Source of the DNA: Thiomicrorhabdus lithotrophica
Lineage (GTDB): Bacteria; Pseudomonadota; Gammaproteobacteria; Thiomicrospirales; Thiomicrospiraceae
Direction of reading: 5' to 3'
DNA length: 64,000 bases
Assembly (NCBI RefSeq): GCF_029201445.1
Contig: NZ_CP102381.1
Span: 1,736,001 to 1,800,000, forward strand
Part shown: positions 6,492-62,457 of the stretch, piece by piece
Numbering within the stretch: position 1 is the first letter of the stretch
How the letters are laid out: each line of letters begins with the position of its first letter
Made by a program: the position numbers and the translations under genes
The notes under the pieces: model-generated
The model's database searches: none
Seen by the model: only the letters and a program-made list of their open reading frames with translations
Told to the model about the DNA's origin: nothing

Positions 6492-9400
6492 TTACAGCAA
6501 GACCTTCTCTACACCCTCTTTCTCTAATCGACTAATAAACTGAGACTTCCAGCTATCACCGTATAGGTTCTTAGCAAGTTCCACCACAATGTAATCGGTT
6601 TTAAGCCCCGTATCACCTTCATAACGGTTTAGACCTTGCTGACAGGCTGGACATGAAGTTAGTAACTTAACCTCACCACCCTCAGATTTCTCATGGCCAG
6701 TCAGTTCTTTAATACCATTCGTCAATTCAATAGTTTTTCTGAAGCGTAGTTGTTCTGAAATATCAGGTCTTGCTGTGGCAAGTGTTCCTGCCTCACTACA
6801 ACAGCGGTCAGAGAACAGCACTTCCTCAGTCTTCAGCAAGTCTTTAGCCACCTGGGTACCATCCATTTTTTTCATTGGATCATGACAAGGTGCATGGTAT
6901 AGATACTTAACCCCCGTTGAAGACTCAACTGAGATGCCTTTTTCAGATAGATACTCATGAATATCCAGCAATCGACATCCAGGGAAAATCAGTTCAAATT
7001 CATACTTCAAAAGCTGATCCATACAGGTACCACAAGACACAATTACCGTCTTAATATCTAAATAGTTAAGCGTGTTTGCAACTCGATGGAATAACGCCCG
7101 GTTTTCAGCTGTAATCTGAGCACCTTTATCTGCCTGCCCTGCCGCTGTTTGTGGATAACCACAACATAAGTAACCAGGTGGCAGTACCGTTTGAGCTCCA
7201 GACTCAGAAAGCATCGCAATCGTCGCTAAACCTATATCACTAAACAGACGTTCAGAACCACAACCGGGGAAATAGAAAACAGCATCTGAGTCATCAGTCA
7301 CTTTATTAGGGTCACTCACTATCGGAACCATATTGGCTTCTTCCAAGCCTAATAAACCACGCATAGTAGATTGATTTACACCAGTATTTAATGGCTTACG
7401 AACAAAGTTAATCACTTGTTGCTGAACAGGAGCAATGGTCGTTGATTGTGATGGTATATCACCTGACTTACCTAATAAACCAAATGATTTAGCTATCTTG
7501 TTACCCAAAGTAATAAAATTAGCACTCCAACCAATCATCACTTTACGCATTACTTTAATCGTTGCTGGATTCTTAGTATTCAAGAACCAAAGCGCAGCTT
7601 TAACCGTAATAGAAGAACGCTTTTTGCCCATCTTCGTTAAGATATTGCGCATACGGATGGAAACATCACCGAAATCAATATTTACAGGACAAGGTGCCTC
7701 ACATTTATGACAAGTAGTACAATGGTCTGCTACATCATTCATTGCGTCAAAGTGCTGTAAAGAAATACCTCTGCGAGTTTGCTCTTCATACATAAACGCT
7801 TCAATCACTTGTCCTGTTGCCAGGATTTTATTTCTTGGTGAGTACAGTAAATTGGCTCTTGGGATATGAGTTTGACAGACTGGTTTACATTTACCACAAC
7901 GTAAACAATCTTTAATATCATTATTCAGTTCATCAAGCTCACTTTGTTCAAGGATAATCGCTTCTTGCTGAACTAAGCTTAAAGAAGGTGTGTAAGCATT
8001 ATCTAGACTTGAACCAGGTAATAACTTACCTTTATTAAAGTGACCATTTGGATCGACTTCATTTTTGTATTTAACAAAAGCTTCTATTTTAGATGGCTCT
8101 AAATACTGGAACTTGGTTAAACCAATTCCATGCTCACCGGAAATAACACCACCTAAACGATGTGCTATATCCATAATTCGATCTACTAAAGATTCAGCAA
8201 GATGAACCATTTCGTAGTTGCCAGAATGAACAGGAATATTAGTGTGAATATTTCCATCCCCCGCATGCATATGTAACGCTACAAAAAGACGAGCCGTACG
8301 AAGTTCCGTATGTATTTTATCTAAACGCTTGTGCAATGCTTCAAAATCATGTCCAAGAAATGTCTTTTCTAAGAACTCTTTTACTTCCTTACGGTATGAA
8401 AGCACTGTTTCACGGCGTAAAAATAGACTTGATAAAGAGTCGCCTTCACGAATATTGTCATGTGACTCCGCAGGTACAAGCTCTAAACATTCATTAACAG
8501 GACTTTCCAAATGCTCAAGTTTAGCTAACCAACGAGATTTAACCATTTTGAAGTGCTGAAGTGTCTCTTCGACCTTACCTCTAAAATATTTAGAGGGTCC
8601 TGAAATGTCTTCAAAATCATCTTCTTGAACAAACTCTGGAATGTCACCTTCAAAATATTCAATATAAGCATCTAAAATATCGATCTTATTTTTAATCGAC
8701 ATTTCAATGTTGATTTTTTCAATTTCGACGTTGTATTCATTCAAACGATCAAGCGGTATAACAACATCTTCATTGATTTTAAAGGCGTTTGTATGTGATG
8801 AAATGGCCGCTGTTCTTGAGCGATCTAACCAGAAACGTTTTCGAGCTTCATCACTAACAGCAATAAAACCTTCTGCATTCCGTTTATTTGCTAAAGCGAC
8901 AATTTCGGTACACGTATTGGCAACTTCAAATCCGTTTTCACCACAAATATCGGCAAGTAATAGCATCTTAGGCAGCTCTTTTCTGCTGGCCTTAGTATTG
9001 TATTTAACGGCTTTAATATAGCGATCATCTAAGTGCTCAAGACCAGCAATCAAAATACCTTCTTTTTTCTTAGACTCAACGTAATCCAGTATTTCAACAA
9101 TCGCAGGAACAGCCAAACTTAAGTCTGTACCAAAAAATTCTAAACAGACTGTTCTAGTATGGCTAGGCATACGGTGAACAATAAAACGACTCGAGGTAAT
9201 TAAACCATCACAACCTTCTTTCTGAATACCAGGTAGTCCGCTTAAAAACTTATCGGTAACATCCTTACCCAGGCCTGCTTGTCTAAATCCTGAACCGGGA
9301 ACCTCTAGACGTTCGGTCTCACCAATCTGGGTTTTTCCGTCTTTCTCAAAGCGACGAATATCAAATATAACGGTCTGTTGATCGTGTAACTTACCAAGGT

Positions 9401-17503: not shown

Positions 17504-17830
17504 TTAGACCGTAAAGGATTCTCCGCAACCGCAGCTATCTTTTACGAGAGGGTTTTTAAAATCAAACCCTTCATTTAAAAGGCTTTCCTGAACATAGTCT
17601 ATTTCCATGCCATCGATATTTTCTAGACTCTTACTATCAACAATGACCTTAGTTCCAAAACTTTCAAAGACTTGATCACCGTCCTGAACATCATCAGCAT
17701 AATCTACTACATAAGAAAACCCAGCACAGCCACTTACTTTTGTTGCAACGCGTAGGCCAATACCATGCCCTCGCTTTGCAATCATTTTTTTCACTCGGTT
17801 TGAAGCCGATTCAGTAAGTGTTACAGCCAT
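17504..17830 (-). CDS. iscA: A-type iron-sulfur carrier IscA
   Basis: The 108-residue A-type carrier has the three conserved cysteines at 35 (SGCAG), 100 and 102 (SCGCGESFTV), at essentially the E. coli IscA positions. The C-terminal GCGESF favours IscA over ErpA or SufA. It follows iscR by 24 nt. In E. coli iscS and iscU stand between iscR and iscA; both are missing here, so this carrier probably serves the SUF system encoded at 53.7-58.7 kb. Confidence 0.9.
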   Translation of the reverse strand: MAVTLTESASNRVKKMIAKRGHGIGLRVATKVSGCAGFSYVVDYADDVQDGDQVFESFGTKVIVDSKSLENIDGMEIDYVQESLLNEGFDFKNPLVKDSCGCGESFTV

Positions 17831-17854
17831 TATGTTTTCCTATTTGTTTTAAAA

Positions 17855-18286
17855 TTAACCGAAAGACACTTCTTTCAAGTTAGCTTGTTTTTTATCTACG
17901 ACACTTTGAAGTGTAATACTTTTTAAGAAAGTGTCAATTGTTGAACTCAATTCTGTCCACAACTCGTGCGATAAACACTGTTCACCACCATTACAATTTG
18001 ACTTTCCACCGCACTTACGTGCATCAACCGATTCATCCACCGCTCGAATAATTTCACTGATTGAAATTTCCGCTGGAATACGGCTTAAGCGATAGCCTCC
18101 ACCTGGACCACGAGCACTTGAAACCAAACCAGCTTTTTTCAACTTTGCAAACAACTGCTCTAAATATGAAAGGGATATACCTTGACGCTCAGAAATTATA
18201 GATAATGTAATAGCACCCTTATCCTGATTTAATGCAATATCTATCATTGCCGTCACAGCATAGCGCCCTTTAGAGGTTAACTTCAT
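17855..18286 (-). CDS. iscR: iron-sulfur cluster regulator IscR
   Basis: IscR is an Rrf2-family regulator that senses Fe-S status through a 2Fe-2S cluster. From the ATG at 18286 the protein has 143 residues, with an N-terminal winged helix (MKLTSKGRYAV) and the cluster ligands Cys92, Cys98 and Cys104 plus His107 (CGGKSNC...CLSH). These are the same numbers as in E. coli. The longer in-frame TTG start is rejected. A promoter with an overlapping IscR-like site lies directly upstream, so autoregulation is likely. Confidence 0.95.
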   Translation of the reverse strand: MKLTSKGRYAVTAMIDIALNQDKGAITLSIISERQGISLSYLEQLFAKLKKAGLVSSARGPGGGYRLSRIPAEISISEIIRAVDESVDARKCGGKSNCNGGEQCLSHELWTELSSTIDTFLKSITLQSVVDKKQANLKEVSFG

Positions 18287-18318
18287 ACAAGTAAATTCCA
18301 AACAGATTAATTGATGAG

Positions 18319-18347
18319 ATTTTATAATAACCTAGTAATTAACTCAA
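18319..18347 (-). promoter_or_regulatory. promoter of iscR
   Basis: On the minus strand TTGAGT (18347-18342), a 17-base spacer and TAAAAT (18324-18319) form a good sigma-70-type promoter. It predicts a leader of about 25 nt before the iscR ATG. Confidence 0.65.
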
Positions 18348-18351
18348 GTAT
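18327..18351 (-). promoter_or_regulatory. IscR type-1-like binding site over the iscR promoter
   Basis: A 25-base imperfect palindrome overlaps the -35 element and the spacer. By my position-by-position comparison it matches the type-1 IscR consensus, as I recall it, at 20 of 25 positions. It has ATA at one end, TAT at the other, and an AT-rich centre. Confidence 0.6.
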
Positions 18352-34297: not shown

Positions 34298-34651
34298 TTA
34301 CTTTACTTCGTGTTTAGCATTCGCTTCTGCCATCATCTTTTTCAACTCGCCAGACTCAGCTAATTCAAGCGTAATATCGCATCCACCTTGAAGCTCACCA
34401 TCAATATATAACTGTGGGAACGTAGGCCAATCTTGATATTTTGGTAAATGTTCAAAAATAGTTGCATCCGCTAAAATATTTACAAAGGCAAACTTCTCTT
34501 CTGTTTCTGCTAGGGCTTGAGCAGCACGACTAGAAAAACCACAAGATGGCATTTGAGGTGTCCCCTTCATGTATAGAACAACTGGGTTATTCGATACCTG
34601 GCTATGAATACGCTCTAACGTTTCTTTTACAATTGGATCTTGGTTTTCCAT
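34298..34651 (-). CDS. grxD: monothiol glutaredoxin
   Basis: Grx4-type monothiol glutaredoxin that binds and transfers 2Fe-2S clusters. The 117-residue protein has the CGFS active site at residues 37-40 in YMKGTPQMPSCGFS, and the glutathione-binding WPTFPQLYIDGELQGGCDI. It probably works with the SUF and IscA/IscR proteins also encoded in this window. Confidence 0.96.
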   Translation of the reverse strand: MENQDPIVKETLERIHSQVSNNPVVLYMKGTPQMPSCGFSSRAAQALAETEEKFAFVNILADATIFEHLPKYQDWPTFPQLYIDGELQGGCDITLELAESGELKKMMAEANAKHEVK

Positions 34652-53235: not shown

Positions 53236-53583
53236 TCAATTTAACAAACCAATTCTATTGCTAGAATCTAACTCATTAGATAACTCAAAAGGTCTTTTTA
53301 CGGGTTCAGGAATAACCCAAAAATATTGCCCTAGTATTGCGGCTAATTCTGACGCTTTATGTAAAGGCTGAGTTATTTCCATAGAACCTGATGGTATTAT
53401 ACTGATTGAGCCTTGCTCTATCGCTGCGTTAACAATATCCGTAACCACTGCAATTTCGCCTTCTAAAATGCCTGTTTCAGGATTCCACCACAATATCATT
53501 GGGTCAAATTGCGAGACATAATTAGGCAAAGGGATCAGTTCAAGACGAATCCAGTCTAAAGGAATTGATGTATCAGGTTTCAT
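53236..53583 (-). CDS. hypothetical protein
   Basis: A 115-residue protein from the ATG at 53583, which has only a weak ribosome site. It has no signal peptide or membrane span, is rich in Ile, Pro and Glu, and has a Trp pair in MILWWNPETG. I do not recognise a family. It lies between murC and sufS, all on the minus strand. A 26-bp perfect palindrome stands about 90 nt upstream of its start. The frame extends to a TTG at 53616, which would add 11 residues. Confidence 0.6.
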   Translation of the reverse strand: MKPDTSIPLDWIRLELIPLPNYVSQFDPMILWWNPETGILEGEIAVVTDIVNAAIEQGSISIIPSGSMEITQPLHKASELAAILGQYFWVIPEPVKRPFELSNELDSSNRIGLLN

Positions 53584-53673
53584 CTGTTCAATATGCCATA
53601 AACAAACGTATTGCAAAAGAACATTAACAGAAAAATAATAGTCGACTGTAAAAAGATTAAACTGTGGGAAGAA

Positions 53674-54998: not shown

Positions 54999-56336
54999 CT
55001 ATTGGTGAATACTGGCTAACCCAGCAGACAAACGATCTGTTACCCAATGACGCACTTTATCATTCGTAATCAATTCTGCTGGCTCTAGAAGAAATGCATG
55101 TGTAATCATTTTAATCGCTTCAGCTCTTCGGATGCCGCGTGCTTGAAGGTAAAAGATCTGGTTTTTATCAATCTGCCCAGAAGCCGAACCGTGAGAACAC
55201 TTAACATCATCGGCATAAATTTCTAGCTGCGGTTTAGTGTCCATTTTGGCAACATCTGATAGCAACAAGTTTTTATTATCCATCTGCCCATCAGTTTTTT
55301 GAGCCTTTTGATCGACTCGAATCATGCCATTAAATACCCCAACCGCACTGTCAGTTAACACATACTTATGGAGCTGTTGGCTATTACCCCAAACATCGTT
55401 GTGTTGAGTATCTGTTCGAGAATCAACCGTCTGGTTATCTTTAGCTAAACAAGCGCTGTTTTGCTGTGATTCAATATGTTCACCATTCATAAAAATATGG
55501 TTTTGATGGCGAGAAAGCTGACTTCCTAAAGCACCATAAAAGGTATTGAAGTTACTGTTATCTGCTTGTTCTATGAACTGATTATTGAAATAGAAAGCGT
55601 TGTCATTTTGCTCTTGCATCACGACTTGTTTAAAACGCGCATATTTTGCAAGTTCTATTTCTGTAACCACGTTTGTACAAGCGCTAAGATTCTCACCATC
55701 AAACACCTCAACCAAAGAAACGTAACGCTCTACCAGTGTAAGTTCGGCATTTTCACCCAACTCAATTCGGTTACGAACATTACTCATTTGGTTACCACGA
55801 GTCTGAATATGCAATACAAAAAACGGCAACTCAAGACTGGCATTATTTGCCAACTGCAAATAAAAACCATCTGCCATTAGTAAGCTGTTTAAAACACCAA
55901 AGGGTTCTTTATTAATCTCTTTTTCACGATCATAAAGCTTGCTTGATTCGCCCACAATATCTGCCGCATCTTTAAAAGACTCATAAATCACACCGTTAGG
56001 CAGGGATTCTAGGTCATCAGACAAACCTTCGTTAAACCAACCATCAACAAACACCACCATAATGACTGGAAAGTCTGGCATGAATTGACGTATTTGCTCA
56101 CTCGTCACAGGTAAAGCAGGCTTTATATCGAAATGATTTTGCACAAAACCTGTTAAACGCGTGTACTGCCAATTCTCATCACGCTGGGTAGGAAAAGCCT
56201 GCTCTGTTAAAAGCGTTTGAGCTTGTTTTCTAACTTGCTTTAATGAGGCGCTGTTACATTGTTCATTTAACAACTCTGATTGAGCAATATAGTGTGCTAC
56301 TGCTTTCTTAGCTACCGGAGATATTTTTCTTTGCAT
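54999..56336 (-). CDS. sufD: Fe-S cluster assembly scaffold subunit SufD
   Basis: SufD forms the SufBC2D scaffold. The 445-residue protein has the beta-helix core and the family C-terminal motif KCSHGSASGQIDKNQIFYLQARGI, with the conserved His and Cys in that region. It follows sufC by 18 nt. Confidence 0.94.
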   Translation of the reverse strand: MQRKISPVAKKAVAHYIAQSELLNEQCNSASLKQVRKQAQTLLTEQAFPTQRDENWQYTRLTGFVQNHFDIKPALPVTSEQIRQFMPDFPVIMVVFVDGWFNEGLSDDLESLPNGVIYESFKDAADIVGESSKLYDREKEINKEPFGVLNSLLMADGFYLQLANNASLELPFFVLHIQTRGNQMSNVRNRIELGENAELTLVERYVSLVEVFDGENLSACTNVVTEIELAKYARFKQVVMQEQNDNAFYFNNQFIEQADNSNFNTFYGALGSQLSRHQNHIFMNGEHIESQQNSACLAKDNQTVDSRTDTQHNDVWGNSQQLHKYVLTDSAVGVFNGMIRVDQKAQKTDGQMDNKNLLLSDVAKMDTKPQLEIYADDVKCSHGSASGQIDKNQIFYLQARGIRRAEAIKMITHAFLLEPAELITNDKVRHWVTDRLSAGLASIHQ

Positions 56337-56354: not shown

Positions 56355-57113
56355 TTAGTCTTTATGATGTTGCTGAATGATATCGTCGTAACCATGTTCT
56401 TCTAACTCATGAACCAGTTCAAAACCGCCCGATTTTACAATCTGTCCGTTGTATAAAACGTGAACATGATCTGGCTTGATATAGTCTAAAAGACGCTGGT
56501 AGTGAGTGACTACAATAAAACTACGATCAGGCGAACGTAACGCATTAACGCCGTTGGCAACAACACGCAATGCATCAATATCAAGTCCTGAATCTGTTTC
56601 ATCAAGAATACAAAGCTTAGGCTCTAAAAGCGCCATCTGAAAAATGTCATTACGCTTTTTCTCACCACCAGAGAACCCAACGTTAACTGATCGTTCTAAT
56701 AAGTCGGCACGCATATCTAATAGATCAATTTTGTCTTTAGCGAACTCATCAAAATCAAACATATCTAATGCTGGCAAACCACGCTCTTCACGTACCGCAT
56801 TTAGAGCCGTTTGCATAAATAACTTATTACTAACACCTGGAATCTCTACCGGGTATTGAAACGCTAAAAAGATACCTTTACGCGCTCTCTCTTCTGCATC
56901 AAGCTCAAGTAAATCTTCGCCATCAAAATCAATTGTTCCTGCCGTTACTTCGTATTCGTCACGCCCCGAAAGCACGTTAGCCAAAGTACTTTTACCAGCA
57001 CCGTTTGGCCCCATAATGGCATGGACTTCACCTGGATTAACTTCAATATTAAGCCCGTTTAATATTTGCTTTTCATCAATTTCAGCTTGTAGGTTTTCTA
57101 CTTTTAATAACAT
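56355..57113 (-). CDS. sufC: Fe-S assembly ATPase SufC
   Basis: SufC is the ABC-type ATPase of the SufBC2D complex. In 252 residues it has Walker A GPNGAGKST near residue 36, the signature FSGGEKKRNDI and Walker B CILDETDSGLD. It follows sufB by 60 nt. Confidence 0.97.
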   Translation of the reverse strand: MLLKVENLQAEIDEKQILNGLNIEVNPGEVHAIMGPNGAGKSTLANVLSGRDEYEVTAGTIDFDGEDLLELDAEERARKGIFLAFQYPVEIPGVSNKLFMQTALNAVREERGLPALDMFDFDEFAKDKIDLLDMRADLLERSVNVGFSGGEKKRNDIFQMALLEPKLCILDETDSGLDIDALRVVANGVNALRSPDRSFIVVTHYQRLLDYIKPDHVHVLYNGQIVKSGGFELVHELEEHGYDDIIQQHHKD

Positions 57114-57173: not shown

Positions 57174-58682
57174 TTAACCAACAGAACCTTCTAAACTAAT
57201 CGCTAATAATTCTTCGGCTTCTTGTGCAAACTCTAACGGTAATTCACTAAATACCTCTTTACAGAAACCATTTACAATCATTGAGATAGCATCTTGTTCA
57301 CTAATACCGCGTTGTTTGCAATAAAATAGCTGATCCTCGCCGATACGTGAAGTGGTCGCTTCATGCTCAATTTGAGCTGTTGGGTTCTCTACTTCAATGT
57401 AAGGAAATGTATGCGCACCACATTTATCACCAATTAACATTGAATCACATTGGGTAAAGTTTCTTGCGCCTTCGGCACTCGGTAAAATCTTTACTAAACC
57501 ACGGTAAGTGTTGTCACTTTTACCTGCAGACAGGCCTTTCGAAATAATCGTACTGCGTGTATTTTTACCGATATGAATCATCTTGGTTCCGGTATCAGCT
57601 TGCTGTCTACGGTTGGTTAATGCCACCGAGTAGAATTCACCAATAGAGTTATCACCTTTAAGAATACAGCTCGGATACTTCCAGGTTATCGCAGAGCCTG
57701 TTTCTGCTTGAGTCCATGACAACTTAGAGTTTTTACCTTCACAAATACCACGTTTGGTAACAAAGTTTAGAATTCCACCCGTACAGTCATCATCACCCGG
57801 ATACCAGTTCTGAACGGTTGAGTATTTAACCTCAGCATCTTCAAGAACAACCACTTCTACAACAGCAGCATGCAACTGATAGGTGTCTCGCACAGGAGCA
57901 GAACAACCTTCCAAATAACTCACGTAACTCCCTTTATCGGCAATTAAGATTGTTCTTTCAAACTGACCTGTTTTGGCTTCATTAATACGGAAGTAGGTAG
58001 ACAAATCAATTGGGCAATGAACCCCTTCAGGAACATAGACAAAAGTACCATCAGAAGCCACCGCTGAGTTCAGTGCGGCAAAGAAGTTATCGTGATAAGG
58101 TACAACCGTTCCGATATATTTTTGAACCATCTCCGGATAGTCTTGGACTGCCTCAGAGAATGAACAGAAAATAACACCTAGTTCAGCTAAGTCTTCTCGT
58201 TTTGTTGTAGAGACAGAGATTGAGTCAAAGATAGCATCAACCGCTACATTGGAATCATCACCTGTAATCGGCACACCCAGTTCTGCAAAGGCTTTGGCTA
58301 CTTCAGGGTCAATTTCAGACCCAGCTTCAGTACTGCATTCGCCAGCACAAGAACCACACTCTGGAGCAGAGTAATAACTGTAATCTTGATAATCTAAAGG
58401 CGTGTACTCTAACTTTGCCCAATGCGGTTCTTCTAGAGTTTTCCAGTGCGCAAAGGCCTTTAACCTAAAGTCTAGCATCCATTCTGGTTCATTCTTTTTA
58501 GCAGAAATAGCACGCACAACATCCTCATCAAGACCTTTTGCAAAAGTCTCGACGGCTGTCGTGGTTACAAACCCTTCTTTGTAGTGCTTATTTTTCGAAA
58601 GCAGGTCATCAATCTCTTGATACTGGCTCTCTACTTGCACATTTTCTGGTTGTAATTCTGTAATTTTTACTGCATCAGCCAT
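57174..58682 (-). CDS. sufB: Fe-S cluster assembly protein SufB
   Basis: SufB is the main scaffold subunit for new Fe-S clusters. The 502 residues contain the Cys-rich [31 protein letters not shown] and the conserved [12 protein letters not shown]-terminal residues [20 protein letters not shown] and [20 protein letters not shown] include the sulfur-path cysteines. It begins the operon, behind an IscR-like site and a good promoter. Length matches E. coli SufB (495). Confidence 0.97.
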
Positions 58683-58703
58683 TGTTTTTAACGCCTAAAT
58701 TTA

Positions 58704-58728
58704 ATATCAGACTATTTTAGTAGGTTAT
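58704..58728 (-). promoter_or_regulatory. IscR type-1-like binding site at the sufB promoter
   Basis: A 25-base imperfect palindrome spans the -10 element of the sufB promoter. By my comparison it matches the type-1 IscR consensus, as I recall it, at 21 of 25 positions. It contains GACTA-ttt-TAGT at its centre and shares ATA/TAT ends and the GG of one arm with the site before iscR. Confidence 0.6.
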
Positions 58729-58742
58729 TCATAAAAAGTCTA
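58714..58742 (-). promoter_or_regulatory. promoter of the suf operon
   Basis: On the minus strand TAGACT (58742-58737), a 17-base spacer and TAAAAT (58719-58714) stand about 32 nt before the sufB ATG. The -10 lies in the IscR-like site, which would suit repression. Confidence 0.55.
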
Positions 58743-58797
58743 CGATTTATCTATTAAAGAACATTAATATGTTTTGTTTATTGAATCGTTTTGATGT

Positions 58798-59598
58798 TTA
58801 GATAGTTGCGGCTTTTACAATTTGACTTAACCAGGCCTGGTCAAGTCCGATACCCGATATTTTAAGCTCTACTAAGCCAACAGCAGAGTCCGCGGCAAAA
58901 GTATCCCAACGATAAGCACTACCCTCGATCACCACCAAATTCGAGTACTCGACCGTTTGCACAACACCCGTAACTCGGCAAATTTTCATGGCTAAATTTT
59001 GACGCGAGTTATCTAAACCCATTAACAAATGATCTAAGACGATACGTTCAGCTGAAAAGCTAAAGGTTTCTACCTGCTGTAAACCTGTCTGTACAAGCTG
59101 AACTTCTGGAGGATTAACACTCCCATCTTGTTTTACAGCTAAAACAAACCCCTTAAAATCGGTTGGAAATCGTTGATTCATCCATCTAACAATTGGCTTC
59201 TTTATCGCTTCTGCCGAATGATTTACGACCCATTTGCTCCACCAGGCCTGGCTATCTAATGAAGCAGCTTCAACAAACGTAAACACCACTCCATCAGCAA
59301 CTGTTAACATATCCATTAGTGCTTTCTGTAACCACTCAGAGCCAATATCAGGTAAAGGTGACCGCACATCAATCACACACCAAACTTCTTGGTTTGCCTG
59401 TTTTTTTGGCAAATTCAAAAAATCATTCCATTCAAAACTACCAGGTCTGGTAAATTGGTAGCTTGCATGTTCCAACTCATATAAATCATTAATAAGTAAT
59501 TTACAATCAAATTGGTCGTGTAAAGCCTGAGCAACACGTGTTTTACCCGACCCTGGCAAACCGAGTAAGACAATATTTTTGGATGCTAACTCATTCAT
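58798..59598 (-). CDS. P-loop protein resembling a degenerate CobW/COG0523 member
   Basis: A 266-residue protein with Walker A GLPGSGKT near residues 13-20. The C-terminal ~70 residues (KICRVTGVVQTVEYSNLVVIEGSAYRW) resemble the CobW C-terminal domain. The typical CxCC motif and the NKxD guanine motif are not seen, so a normal G3E GTPase is unlikely. It follows znuA on the same strand by 32 nt and probably shares its transcript, pointing to zinc. Three copies of the ACCAGGCCTGGT family lie inside it, at 58830, 59241 and 59440. The family call is tentative. Confidence 0.6.
   Translation of the reverse strand: MNELASKNIVLLGLPGSGKTRVAQALHDQFDCKLLINDLYELEHASYQFTRPGSFEWNDFLNLPKKQANQEVWCVIDVRSPLPDIGSEWLQKALMDMLTVADGVVFTFVEAASLDSQAWWSKWVVNHSAEAIKKPIVRWMNQRFPTDFKGFVLAVKQDGSVNPPEVQLVQTGLQQVETFSFSAERIVLDHLLMGLDNSRQNLAMKICRVTGVVQTVEYSNLVVIEGSAYRWDTFAADSAVGLVELKISGIGLDQAWLSQIVKAATI
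58830..58841. repeat. ACCAGGCCTGGT palindrome, exact copy 10
   Basis: The exact 12-mer lies in a 24-bp near-palindrome with one mismatch. It encodes Asp-Gln-Ala-Trp-Leu near the C-terminus of the P-loop protein. Confidence 0.9.
59241..59252. repeat. near copy of the ACCAGGCCTGGT palindrome
   Basis: ACCAGGCCTGGC, one mismatch, in the P-loop gene, encoding Ser-Gln-Ala-Trp. Confidence 0.6.
59440..59451. repeat. near copy of the ACCAGGCCTGGT palindrome
   Basis: ACCAGGTCTGGT, one mismatch, in the P-loop gene, encoding Thr-Arg-Pro-Gly on the coding strand. Confidence 0.6.
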
Positions 59599-59630
59599 TG
59601 CGCGTTTTAACCTTTTACATTCTCGGCTAT

Positions 59631-60740
59631 TTATTGATTGTTAGCTTTAGATAAGCAATCATTAAACTGATGACTAAGCTGCAAAATAAATACGTCATAA
59701 TTTAAGAAATCACGACCAGATTCTTTTTGAAACTCTTTAGTCACAACCCCCATCGGATCTAAGCTACCAACCCTAACATCTAAACCTTTAGTGACTGACA
59801 AAACTCGCTTCTCTGGAAATTGTGGTTCCTTAAAAACACAACTTACCTTACCTGACTTGATTTTAGATCTAAGCTCTGCAACTCTTTTCAAGCTCGGAGA
59901 TACCGAAGGATTTAACTGTATCGATCCTACGCCGTTTAATGAATATTGATGCTCAAAATACTGAAACGCATCATGCAATACCATATATGGTACTGTTTGC
60001 ACTTGTTGCAGTTGTTGTTTAATCTGCTGATTTGTCTTATCTAACTTATTTAACCAGGCCTGGGTTCTCTGACTTATATTCTCGGCATCGTTAGGCTTTA
60101 ACGTCTGCAACTGTTTAGAAACGGCTTCTATTAACAGGCGACTGTTTTTAAATGACATCCATAAATGTCCGTCCATTCTTTGCGATTCTGAAGCTACGCT
60201 GTATTCATGCTCATGATTATGATTATGCTCTTCAGAGTCAGCTGAAGTATCTTTATGCTCGGCTTCGCTAAGGGTTGCAATATGCTGGCTTTTCTTTTCC
60301 CACAAGCCACCTTGCCTAACTGGTAGCTGCTCAATATTGGCTAAGCCTTTTAAACTAACCTCCTTAACCTTTAAATTTGTCAGCGGTTTTTGCATCCAAT
60401 TATCTACTGGGCTAGCCACCCATAGAACCAAATCGCTCTCATTTAGACCACGAAGATGTGATGGCTTTAACTGAAAACCATGTGGGCTTGCACCTGGCTT
60501 AAGCACCACTTCAAGTTGATCATCGCCAGACAGCAAAGGGGCCACCATGCCCGCTAAAGGTGGGATTGACACGGTAATCTTTAGCGCATAACTCTGCTGG
60601 CTGATGAGTAAAGTAAACAGGGTAAAGATGATTTTAATAGCCGTCGAAATAGAAAATTCTTTATTCAGATAACCCACTCCATTTAAAGAAGATTTAAATT
60701 CTTTTCGTACTTTATGTTTCAAACTAGATAAAATATTCAT
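59631..60740 (-). CDS. znuA: zinc ABC transporter substrate-binding protein ZnuA
   Basis: ZnuA captures zinc in the periplasm. The 369-residue protein has an unusually long N-terminus, with the hydrophobic signal at about residues 33-52 after some 32 polar residues, so the true start may be internal. Family motifs are seen: PGASPHGFQLKPSHLRGL with the first zinc His, and a His-rich loop (EEHNHNHEHEY) near residue 172. VLHDAFQYFEHQY with a later His also appears. It ends with a C-terminal Cys. It is divergent from znuCB. Confidence 0.93.
   Translation of the reverse strand: MNILSSLKHKVRKEFKSSLNGVGYLNKEFSISTAIKIIFTLFTLLISQQSYALKITVSIPPLAGMVAPLLSGDDQLEVVLKPGASPHGFQLKPSHLRGLNESDLVLWVASPVDNWMQKPLTNLKVKEVSLKGLANIEQLPVRQGGLWEKKSQHIATLSEAEHKDTSADSEEHNHNHEHEYSVASESQRMDGHLWMSFKNSRLLIEAVSKQLQTLKPNDAENISQRTQAWLNKLDKTNQQIKQQLQQVQTVPYMVLHDAFQYFEHQYSLNGVGSIQLNPSVSPSLKRVAELRSKIKSGKVSCVFKEPQFPEKRVLSVTKGLDVRVGSLDPMGVVTKEFQKESGRDFLNYDVFILQLSHQFNDCLSKANNQ
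60053..60064. repeat. near copy of the ACCAGGCCTGGT palindrome
   Basis: ACCAGGCCTGGG, one mismatch, inside znuA, encoding Thr-Gln-Ala-Trp-Leu on the coding strand. Confidence 0.6.
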
Positions 60741-60799
60741 AATATTTTTCCTTGCCCTGTAGGCAAATTTCTTAACTCAGTTATAAAGGCTTATTCAGC

Positions 60800-61660
60800 G
60801 TGCAGTTTTCACAATTTAGACAGCCTCTTATCAAAGCTGAAAACATTTCTCATAAATTTGACCAAACCACGGTCTTACAACAAATTTCTCTACAAATTTT
60901 CCCTAAAGAGATTGTTACCTTAATCGGACCAAATGGAGCGGGGAAATCAACGCTTCTTAAAATTTTACTAGGACTTATTAAACCTAATAATGGCAAAGTT
61001 TCTAGGCAAAAAAACCTAAAAATTGGTTTCATGCCACAAAAAATTCAAATAGATCCAACACTGCCAATGACAGTAAAGCGTTTTTTACAATTAGGTTTGC
61101 CTAACCCAAGCCTTAAGGACTGGTTTTTTAAGGCTGCATATAGTAACACACTCATAAAAAAAACAACTCAAGATCTAGATATTGCCGACCTGCTCAACCA
61201 CCCAATACAAAAAGTATCTGGTGGTGAGATGCAGCGTATTTTATTGGCTCGTGCTTTGATCAGAGAACCGCAGTTATTGGTTCTTGATGAACCAGTACAA
61301 GGCGTTGATTTGCAAGGTCAAACGGAGATCTACGACTATATCAATAAGATTCGAAACGAATATGGTTGTGGTATTTTAATGGTGAGTCATGACCTTCACA
61401 TAGTCATGAAACATACTGACGAAGTACTCTGCATAAATCAGCATATGTGTTGCAGTGGACACCCTCAAAGTGTCAGTAAATCATCTGAATTTCAAGCTCT
61501 ATTTGGTGACCTTTCTGATAGCTTAGCCTTGTATGAACACCACCATAATAATACTGTCTGCCAACACACTCATGGACTTCATCATCATGAAGTTCATGAA
61601 AGTGATGAATCAAGAAATCAAAAAACCAATATTGAATCATCAAACGGAGGGAAATCATAA
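60800..61660 (+). CDS. znuC: zinc ABC transporter ATPase ZnuC
   Basis: ZnuC powers zinc uptake. The 286-residue protein starts at GTG and has Walker A GPNGAGKST, the signature VSGGEMQRILLARAL and Walker B LLVLDEPVQG. A His-rich tail (YEHHHNN, HTHGLHHHEVHE) extends past the ATPase domain and could bind zinc. The stop overlaps znuB as TAATG, which shows coupling. The gap to znuA is only 59 bases and must hold both promoters. Confidence 0.94.
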   Translation: MQFSQFRQPLIKAENISHKFDQTTVLQQISLQIFPKEIVTLIGPNGAGKSTLLKILLGLIKPNNGKVSRQKNLKIGFMPQKIQIDPTLPMTVKRFLQLGLPNPSLKDWFFKAAYSNTLIKKTTQDLDIADLLNHPIQKVSGGEMQRILLARALIREPQLLVLDEPVQGVDLQGQTEIYDYINKIRNEYGCGILMVSHDLHIVMKHTDEVLCINQHMCCSGHPQSVSKSSEFQALFGDLSDSLALYEHHHNNTVCQHTHGLHHHEVHESDESRNQKTNIESSNGGKS

Positions 61661-62457
61661 TGTCTTTATTACCTGACTTTATGCTTCTCGCTCTATTAGG
61701 TGGAATTGGCTTGGCTATTATCTCTGCACCGCTTGGCGTATTTATGGTTTGGCAGCGCCAATCTTACTTTGGCGCAACTCTTGCACACTCAGCGTTATTG
61801 GGAATTAGCATCGGCCTATATCTACATTTAGACTTAACCCTAAGTGTCATTGTCGTATCTATGATTGTTGCCGCTGGTATCTTTGGTTTAGGTCAGTACA
61901 AGCAACTCTCTTCAGACACTTTATTAGGCATACTTGCTCATAGTAGTTTAGCGTTCGGTTTAATCTTAATTAGCTTACAAGACAATATTCAAGTCGATTT
62001 AATGGGGTATTTATTTGGTGACATCCTAAGCATCAATACTGTAGATTTAACGCTTATTCTGTTCACTAGCTTACTCATTCTGGTGTTTTACATAAAACAC
62101 TGGCAATCACTTTTAAACGTTACCTTAAACCCTGAGTTGGCTCAAGTAGAAGGCGTTAATGTCAAACAAGTACAACTGCTTTTTGTTTTGTTACTTGCCT
62201 TCATGATTGCGCTTTCCATGAAAATTGTCGGCGTTTTGTTAGTCACATCACTACTCATTATTCCAGCTGCAGCAGCAAGAAAACTCTCTAATTCTCCTGA
62301 ACAGATGCTTGTAATTAGTATCTTTATTGGTATCTTTTCAATTGTTGCTGGCCTGATTACCTCATACTATATTGATGTACCAACAGGCCCCGCAATTGTG
62401 ATGGCTGCTACTGTAGTTTTCTTATTGCTACAATTAAAACCTCAGTCAACAAGATAA
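61660..62457 (+). CDS. znuB: zinc ABC transporter permease ZnuB
   Basis: ZnuB is the membrane channel of the zinc importer. The 265-residue protein is almost entirely hydrophobic, with about eight spans, and has SYFGATLAHSALLGI and LLIIPAAAARKLS of the family. It is coupled to znuC by the TAATG overlap and followed by a terminator. Confidence 0.94.
   Translation: MSLLPDFMLLALLGGIGLAIISAPLGVFMVWQRQSYFGATLAHSALLGISIGLYLHLDLTLSVIVVSMIVAAGIFGLGQYKQLSSDTLLGILAHSSLAFGLILISLQDNIQVDLMGYLFGDILSINTVDLTLILFTSLLILVFYIKHWQSLLNVTLNPELAQVEGVNVKQVQLLFVLLLAFMIALSMKIVGVLLVTSLLIIPAAAARKLSNSPEQMLVISIFIGIFSIVAGLITSYYIDVPTGPAIVMAATVVFLLLQLKPQSTR

Follow-up and report, generated by a model that had tools for sequence, protein, structure and literature searches.

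The regulatory logic of IscR has been worked out mainly in Escherichia coli, which has two Fe-S systems. Most bacteria are described as having one, most often SUF (PMC11559095). The isc operon of E. coli is repressed by [2Fe-2S]-IscR, as described in PMC12594620, and the account in PMC8593673 describes all E. coli type-1 promoters as IscR-repressed. The E. coli sufA promoter carries a type-2 site and is activated by apo-IscR, with Fur and OxyR also acting on it, according to PMC8593673. The isc promoter of the ISC-only bacterium Pseudomonas aeruginosa has two type-1 sites, A and B, one located upstream of the -35 element and one between the promoter elements, and the gel shifts described in PMC6599224 show binding only by IscR with intact cluster ligands. 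In Rhodobacter sphaeroides, direct IscR binding and repression are reported for the isc-suf operon (promoters P2 and P3), where an IscR box lies near the start site of the promoter feeding suf, and the repression of P3 is described as alike with and without iron (PMC6956336). In Caulobacter crescentus, the single Fe-S assembly operon (isc-suf) is under IscR control that responds to iron, and an IscR peak lies over its promoter, as reported in PMC11475020. Type-1 IscR repression of isc (E. coli, P. aeruginosa) and IscR control of suf-containing operons (Rhodobacter, Caulobacter) are already known, and the literature searched on IscR and suf in Thiomicrospira and Hydrogenovibrio yielded no description of IscR regulation of suf.

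The locus studied here belongs to the window, the whole stretch of 64,000 nucleotides from Thiomicrorhabdus lithotrophica that was analysed. In the species-genome collection, searched with a tool that may omit the window's own genome and its nearest neighbours, the best-matching named sufB is that of Thiomicrorhabdus sp. ZW0627, at 91% identity. A promoter with a spacer of 17 bases, a length kept in 29/29 genus promoters, precedes sufBCDS. The features of the region are:

58737..58742, minus strand: suf promoter -35 hexamer TAGACT, 17 bases from the -10; T[AG]GAC[AT] at this place in 29/29 genus promoters
58714..58719, minus strand: suf promoter -10 hexamer TAAAAT, inside the putative operator; TAAAAT in 28/29 and TAAACT in 1/29 genus promoters
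58704..58728, minus strand: type-1-like putative IscR operator of 25 bases, with its dyad centre within the -10 hexamer
57174..58682, minus strand: sufB, above the cut-offs of the NCBIfam sufB equivalogs
56355..57113, minus strand: sufC, above the cut-offs of the NCBIfam sufC equivalogs
54999..56336, minus strand: sufD, above the cut-off of TIGR01981
53721..54950, minus strand: sufS, a cysteine desulfurase, above the cut-off of TIGR01979

The best type-1 match in the 64-kb window is ATAACCTACTAAAATAGTCTGATAT (minus strand, 58728..58704), which agrees with the consensus ATASYYGACTRWWWYAGTCRRSTAT at 21 of 25 positions (84% identity) and differs from it at positions 4, 7, 20 and 22. The original prediction had placed a 25-base site with 21 type-1 matches over the -10 of a TAGACT-17-TAAAAT promoter before sufB; both the site and the promoter (58742..58737 and 58719..58714) are confirmed, and the consensus is printed in the same form in PMC6599224. 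The putative operator overlaps the core promoter, its positions 10-15 being the -10 hexamer. The level of 21/25 is reached once in 64 kb; in 20 random sequences that reproduce the neighbour frequencies of the window the maximum was 20, and readings of 20/25 occurred 0.7 times per sequence, a site being counted once per strand.

Like the E. coli iscR (isc) promoter, where two sites match the consensus at 24/25 and 22/25, the suf promoter carries a 25-base palindrome for the same regulator family. The E. coli type-1 sites control isc, whereas here the target is suf, the palindrome is centred on the -10, and iscR lies about 40 kb away with neither iscS nor iscU beside it. The target operon and the regulator are those of the E. 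coli sufA promoter, which differs in its type-2 site and in a type-1 match of at most 15/25 in the stretch scanned. The P. aeruginosa sites A and B, 68% and 76% identical to the consensus according to PMC6599224, are weaker than the suf site. R. sphaeroides shares the IscR box at a promoter feeding suf, but it is an alphaproteobacterium with isc and suf in one operon led by iscR. In C. crescentus a single assembly operon is likewise under IscR, but iscR is its first gene, and IscR is bound over the -35, to a region described as having low similarity to that bacterium's own type II motif (PMC11475020).

A protein of the NifU_N/IscU type was not found in the genome by a search that was positive in 12/14 control genomes. 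With SUF genes present and IscU/NifU_N absent, Fe-S assembly appears to proceed by SUF alone, as judged by a search with NifU_N as the marker of other systems. In the surroundings of the operon, a 126-codon reading frame after sufS (53236-53616, minus strand) has no Pfam or NCBIfam match, and a P-loop protein encoded upstream of sufB (58798-62457) has no Pfam match; the latter adjoins genes that read from the sequence as a zinc ABC transporter.

The candidate regulator is encoded in the same window. A PF02082 search of the genome gave one match, and the features of its locus are:

17855..18286, minus strand: iscR, the sole Rrf2-family gene found in the genome
18327..18351, minus strand: putative IscR operator over the iscR promoter -35, 20/25 against the consensus and second in the genome scan
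18319..18347, minus strand: iscR promoter TTGAGT-17-TAAAAT (18347..18342 and 18324..18319), read by eye
17504..17830, minus strand: A-type carrier, IscA-like, directly after iscR, above the cut-off of TIGR00049

The start codon of iscR was chosen from an alignment with the E. coli protein (the list of open reading frames opens at TTG 18301). The protein has an Rrf2 fold with Cys92, Cys98, Cys104 and His107 (C-x5-C-x5-C-x2-H), numbered as in E. coli; PMC8593673 names these four residues as the cluster ligands, and their positions agree with the solved IscR variants carrying Ala there. It contains the recognition-helix stretch SYLEQLF with Glu43 and has all five DNA-contact residues, S40, Y41, E43, Q44 and R59, listed in PMC11475020. 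Among solved proteins its nearest matches are structures of IscR, headed by 4hf0 and 4hf1. The best-scoring NCBIfam family is TIGR02010 (IscR), whose score of 199.7 bits lies under the cut-off of 207.55. The neighbouring carrier likewise scores best with TIGR02011 (IscA), below its cut-off. No iscS, iscU or Hsc genes were found beside iscR-iscA (17504-18351, minus strand), so that iscR stands next to an IscA-like carrier only and not in or beside an isc operon; the gene preceding the pair is presumably cysE-like. After the suf site, the iscR operator is the next-best consensus match in any promoter of the window; it lies over the -35 and would serve autoregulation. Another stretch with 20/25, level with the iscR site (7363-7387), was taken as a chance match, lying inside a 1287-codon reading frame and being absent from the genus-matrix matches described below.

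The whole genome of 2.5 Mb contains no consensus match with three or fewer mismatches, the suf site having four, and a trained model was therefore used instead. The genus matrix was trained on 27 suf and 21 iscR distinct sites, including the suf and iscR sites of the window. Within the window it scored suf at 33.2 and iscR at 30.8 (both trained), followed by a held-out site before grxD at 26.8, the next match reaching 13.6; the top value in 15 random sequences was 17.4. The grxD features are:

34298..34651, minus strand: grxD, a Grx4-family monothiol glutaredoxin (CGFS), above the cut-off of TIGR00365
34677..34701, minus strand: putative IscR operator before grxD, 26.8 bits, third in the window and held out of training

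In the whole genome, a 25-position model of the genus suf and iscR sites (R1) ranked suf first, iscR second and grxD tied third with a site before an antiporter gene. The original prediction proposed a matrix scan as the check that could expose the suf site as one of many random matches; it does not fall among them, its first rank being that of a site included in training. To avoid the circularity of joint training, matrices were also made from one promoter each. In the window, a symmetric iscR-only matrix placed grxD second and suf third, and a symmetric suf-only matrix placed iscR second and grxD third; with unsymmetrised matrices the held-out sites came second to fourth. With the iscR-only matrix in its unsymmetrised form, a match at 57903 inside sufB reached 20.1, more than grxD or suf; it was rejected as chance and is absent among the top matches listed for the symmetric matrices. 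A 19-base pattern allowing up to two mismatches was of no more use as a genome search than its reversed control (15 against 16 matches in the genome), and only the five matches with at most one mismatch looked useful.

The suf site was found in 58/58 readable sufB upstreams from 62 family genomes. The genus sample consists of 32 genomes, 31 of them with a sufB match; 30 sufB loci were fetched, 29 were readable, and all 29 have the site, matching the consensus at 17 to 22 of 25 positions. The site is also present in G018, where a sufB fragment lies at a contig end, and in G020, which brings the count to 31 of the 32 genus genomes, the last being the one without a sufB match. In the rest of the family, 27/30 genomes were readable and 27/27 have the site at the same promoter; in the three others sufB is cut, fragmentary or missing. 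The first base of the genus site lies mostly about 47 bases upstream of the start codon. In the related genus g2, two genomes have ATAGTTGACTAAAATAGTCAACTAT, a perfect palindrome with a 25/25 match, a third genome having 24/25 and a fourth 23/25. The weakest sites of the family match at 17/25 (some at 17-18), which is near background by count, the second-best match per 200 bases being 15-17; for these sites it is the constant position on the -10 that constitutes the evidence. The suf sites of g2 and g5 receive low scores from the genus matrix, 5.7 to 12.4, because their half-sites differ. At iscR, 25/30 fetched genus upstreams have a site accepted as being of the same form. A strong co-variation of the operator arms was expected and was found to be weak: 7.29 paired positions against 7.04 in shuffled sets, a value that 19/2000 shuffles reach when kinship is ignored.

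Such conservation might reflect a strong sigma-70 promoter only, the likeness to an IscR site arising incidentally from the AT-richness around the -10, and the coincidence of positions 10-15 with the -10 hexamer would suit this explanation. Conservation also extends to ATAACC, which precedes the -10, and to the half-site that follows the hexamer; in the promoter of iscR, the motif is placed over the -35, with its dominant half-site opposite in orientation to that of suf. When positions 10-15 were masked, the held-out sites still came second to fifth in the window: the suf-only matrix placed iscR second, and the iscR-only matrix placed grxD second and suf fifth. Two genomes in which the site is kept and no IscR was detected speak for the promoter-only explanation. 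In one of them, G034 (81% complete), a close IscR is lacking and the suf site still matches at 23/25. The other, G030, is listed as 99% complete in 9 contigs; it lacks a close IscR and the neighbouring IscA, keeps a suf site of 26.4 bits, and contains one distant Rrf2 protein only, which we take to be NsrR-like. In the suf region it shares about 83% DNA identity with G005, a genome that has iscR, and a very recent loss of iscR is therefore not obvious; it is possible that the absence is an assembly gap. G030 (L108, L205, L239) is the main anomaly for an explanation by IscR. On balance, a promoter conserved for sigma-70 alone seems very improbable.

A more serious alternative to repression by cluster-loaded IscR concerns the class of the site. 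If it behaved as a type-2 site, apo- and holo-IscR would both bind it, and apo-IscR would regulate suf as in E. coli. Glu43 is the residue behind the discrimination of type-1 and type-2 DNA (PMC5411485), and the same paper describes a contact of Glu43 with CC in type-2 DNA; the dominant half ATAACC contains such a CC. CC occurs on both sides in some relatives, for example in G025 (ATAACCTACTAAAATAGTCGGATAT). Type-1 DNA has CC on one side and TT on the other (PMC5411485); if this is mapped, as we did, onto positions 5-6 of the half-sites, CC/TT is seen at iscR and grxD and CC/CA at suf. As a yardstick for type-2 character, the 9-position motif AxxxCCxxAxxxxxxxTAxGGxxxT as printed in PMC4169559 was used in place of the 26-base consensus of Giel et al. 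It is matched at 5/9 positions at the suf site and at 6/9 at best in 58680-58850, which speaks against type-2 behaviour, though bluntly, because the motif, matched at 8/9 at E. coli sufA, is also matched at 9/9 twice upstream of E. coli iscR. The ACT and AGT elements stand at type-1 spacing, the consensus matches rise from 21/25 here to 25/25 in orthologous sites, the perfect type-1 palindrome in two g2 genomes lies at the same promoter, and a location on the -10 would fit repression better than activation. Type-2 behaviour is accordingly judged unlikely, and the original interpretation of a type-1 site over the suf promoter, read as repression by cluster-loaded IscR, largely holds.

We consider it highly probable, from the shared motif and by analogy with described systems, that IscR carrying its cluster acts as a repressor of suf, iscR-iscA and grxD through a common operator. 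The 25-base palindrome would be the operator for [2Fe-2S]-IscR, and an IscR dimer bound at suf would lie across the -10 and block the polymerase. As long as SUF supplies enough clusters, IscR would carry its cluster, sit over the suf -10 and keep RNA polymerase off; when clusters are short (iron limitation, oxidants), the IscR cluster would be lost or oxidised, IscR would leave the type-1 site, and sufBCDS, iscR-iscA and grxD would be derepressed together. The motif lies over the -10 at suf and, in the opposite sense, over the -35 at iscR, two layouts from which the same outcome is expected. Since the search found no scaffold of the IscU type, the cluster of IscR would have to come from SUF, and SUF as the cluster source would close a negative feedback loop within one pathway. 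Most likely, the SUF machinery turns itself down when clusters are plentiful. We infer the binding, the need for a cluster, the repression and the role of SUF as the cluster source, the repression by analogy with E. coli and P. aeruginosa. E. coli IscR is described as a poor SUF substrate (PMC8593673). By combining SUF with a single unlinked IscR and a clear type-1 operator on suf, the clade offers a simple system for studying IscR maturation by SUF, and in it the question of how one pathway regulates itself becomes askable.

In the wider scan of the 32 genus genomes, each genome gave 440 to 2666 first-look candidates, of which R1 scored the best 150, so that weak sites may be missed. The iscR upstreams of G008, G010, G020, G022 and G031 were left out of its training, as the best site in each has another form or position. 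Among these candidates, at least 98 matches were obtained at E<=0.1: at least 29 at suf (29 genomes), at least 25 at iscR (24 genomes), at least 22 at grxD (22 genomes) and at least 22 elsewhere, against 8 matches in the reversed-site control, the best of which had 18.0 bits. Above 18.0 bits there were at least 78 matches, 10 of them elsewhere than at suf, iscR or grxD, and none in the control. At E<=0.1 and among the best 150 candidates per genome, the suf sites of G016 and G027 were not called, and no match was obtained at iscR in 7/31 genomes with iscR. The matches at other genes were inspected in 19 of 22 cases (excluding G001 1406118, G012 C1 392466 and G021 C97); one protein per group was tested with Pfam, and the rest were assigned from the similarity of their N-terminal residues.

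Operator-like sites precede folE2 in two genomes, G000, the one studied here (C1:2151421; L147 1501-1522), and G001 (L167); folE2 is a possible extra IscR target, and the gene before the site in G000 is presumably a CobW-like GTPase. Such sites also precede selO/ydiU in G002 and G029, and the iron/manganese superoxide dismutase gene (sodB) in G017, G018 and G024 (L188, L190, L196). In G021 they occur at sufE, over the start of the frame, and at an AhpC/TSA protein, and a DUF2189 gene has one in G012 and a weaker one in G000. The E. coli ydiU gene is described as an IscR type-2 target in PMC12594620. It may be, as a tentative extension of the main reading, that the IscR of this family acts as the closed-loop sensor of a SUF-only cell, receiving its cluster from SUF, repressing suf via a -10-centred type-1 operator with the genus-specific half-site ATAACCNAST, and controlling a regulon that has grown by lineage to grxD, folE2, selO, sodB, sufE and DUF2189. 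The members of this group are sulfur oxidisers, for which the set of sites provides a concrete, testable regulon.

The matches before sodB, folE2 and selO could also be iron or stress responses for other reasons, and the motif might then belong to another regulator, such as Fur or an unrecognised factor, as the retention of the site in G030 without a detected iscR would allow. On the evidence of the IscR-motif and Rrf2 searches this is hardly probable: the motif precedes iscR itself, it becomes a perfect type-1 palindrome in g2, the genus matrix assigns scores of 17.5 and 14.8 to the sites of E. coli iscR, and one Rrf2 protein was found in the genome. Repression by cluster-loaded IscR is retained as the preferred reading.

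Several minor observations accompany these results. The antiporter-gene site of the studied genome (C1:2262307; L144 1501-1524) has 18.8 bits and lies before a complex-I-like proton-antiporter gene (PF00361), near a gene that we take to encode an SbtA-like transporter. A small conserved protein (MMPxxW...GNPTPYEL-like), with no Pfam match for the one member tested, is preceded by operator-like sites in G003, G011 and G012 (L171, L179, L182). Type-1-like sites stand before Rrf2-suf operons in some of 80 sufB loci of named genomes (e.g., L027, L065 and L076).
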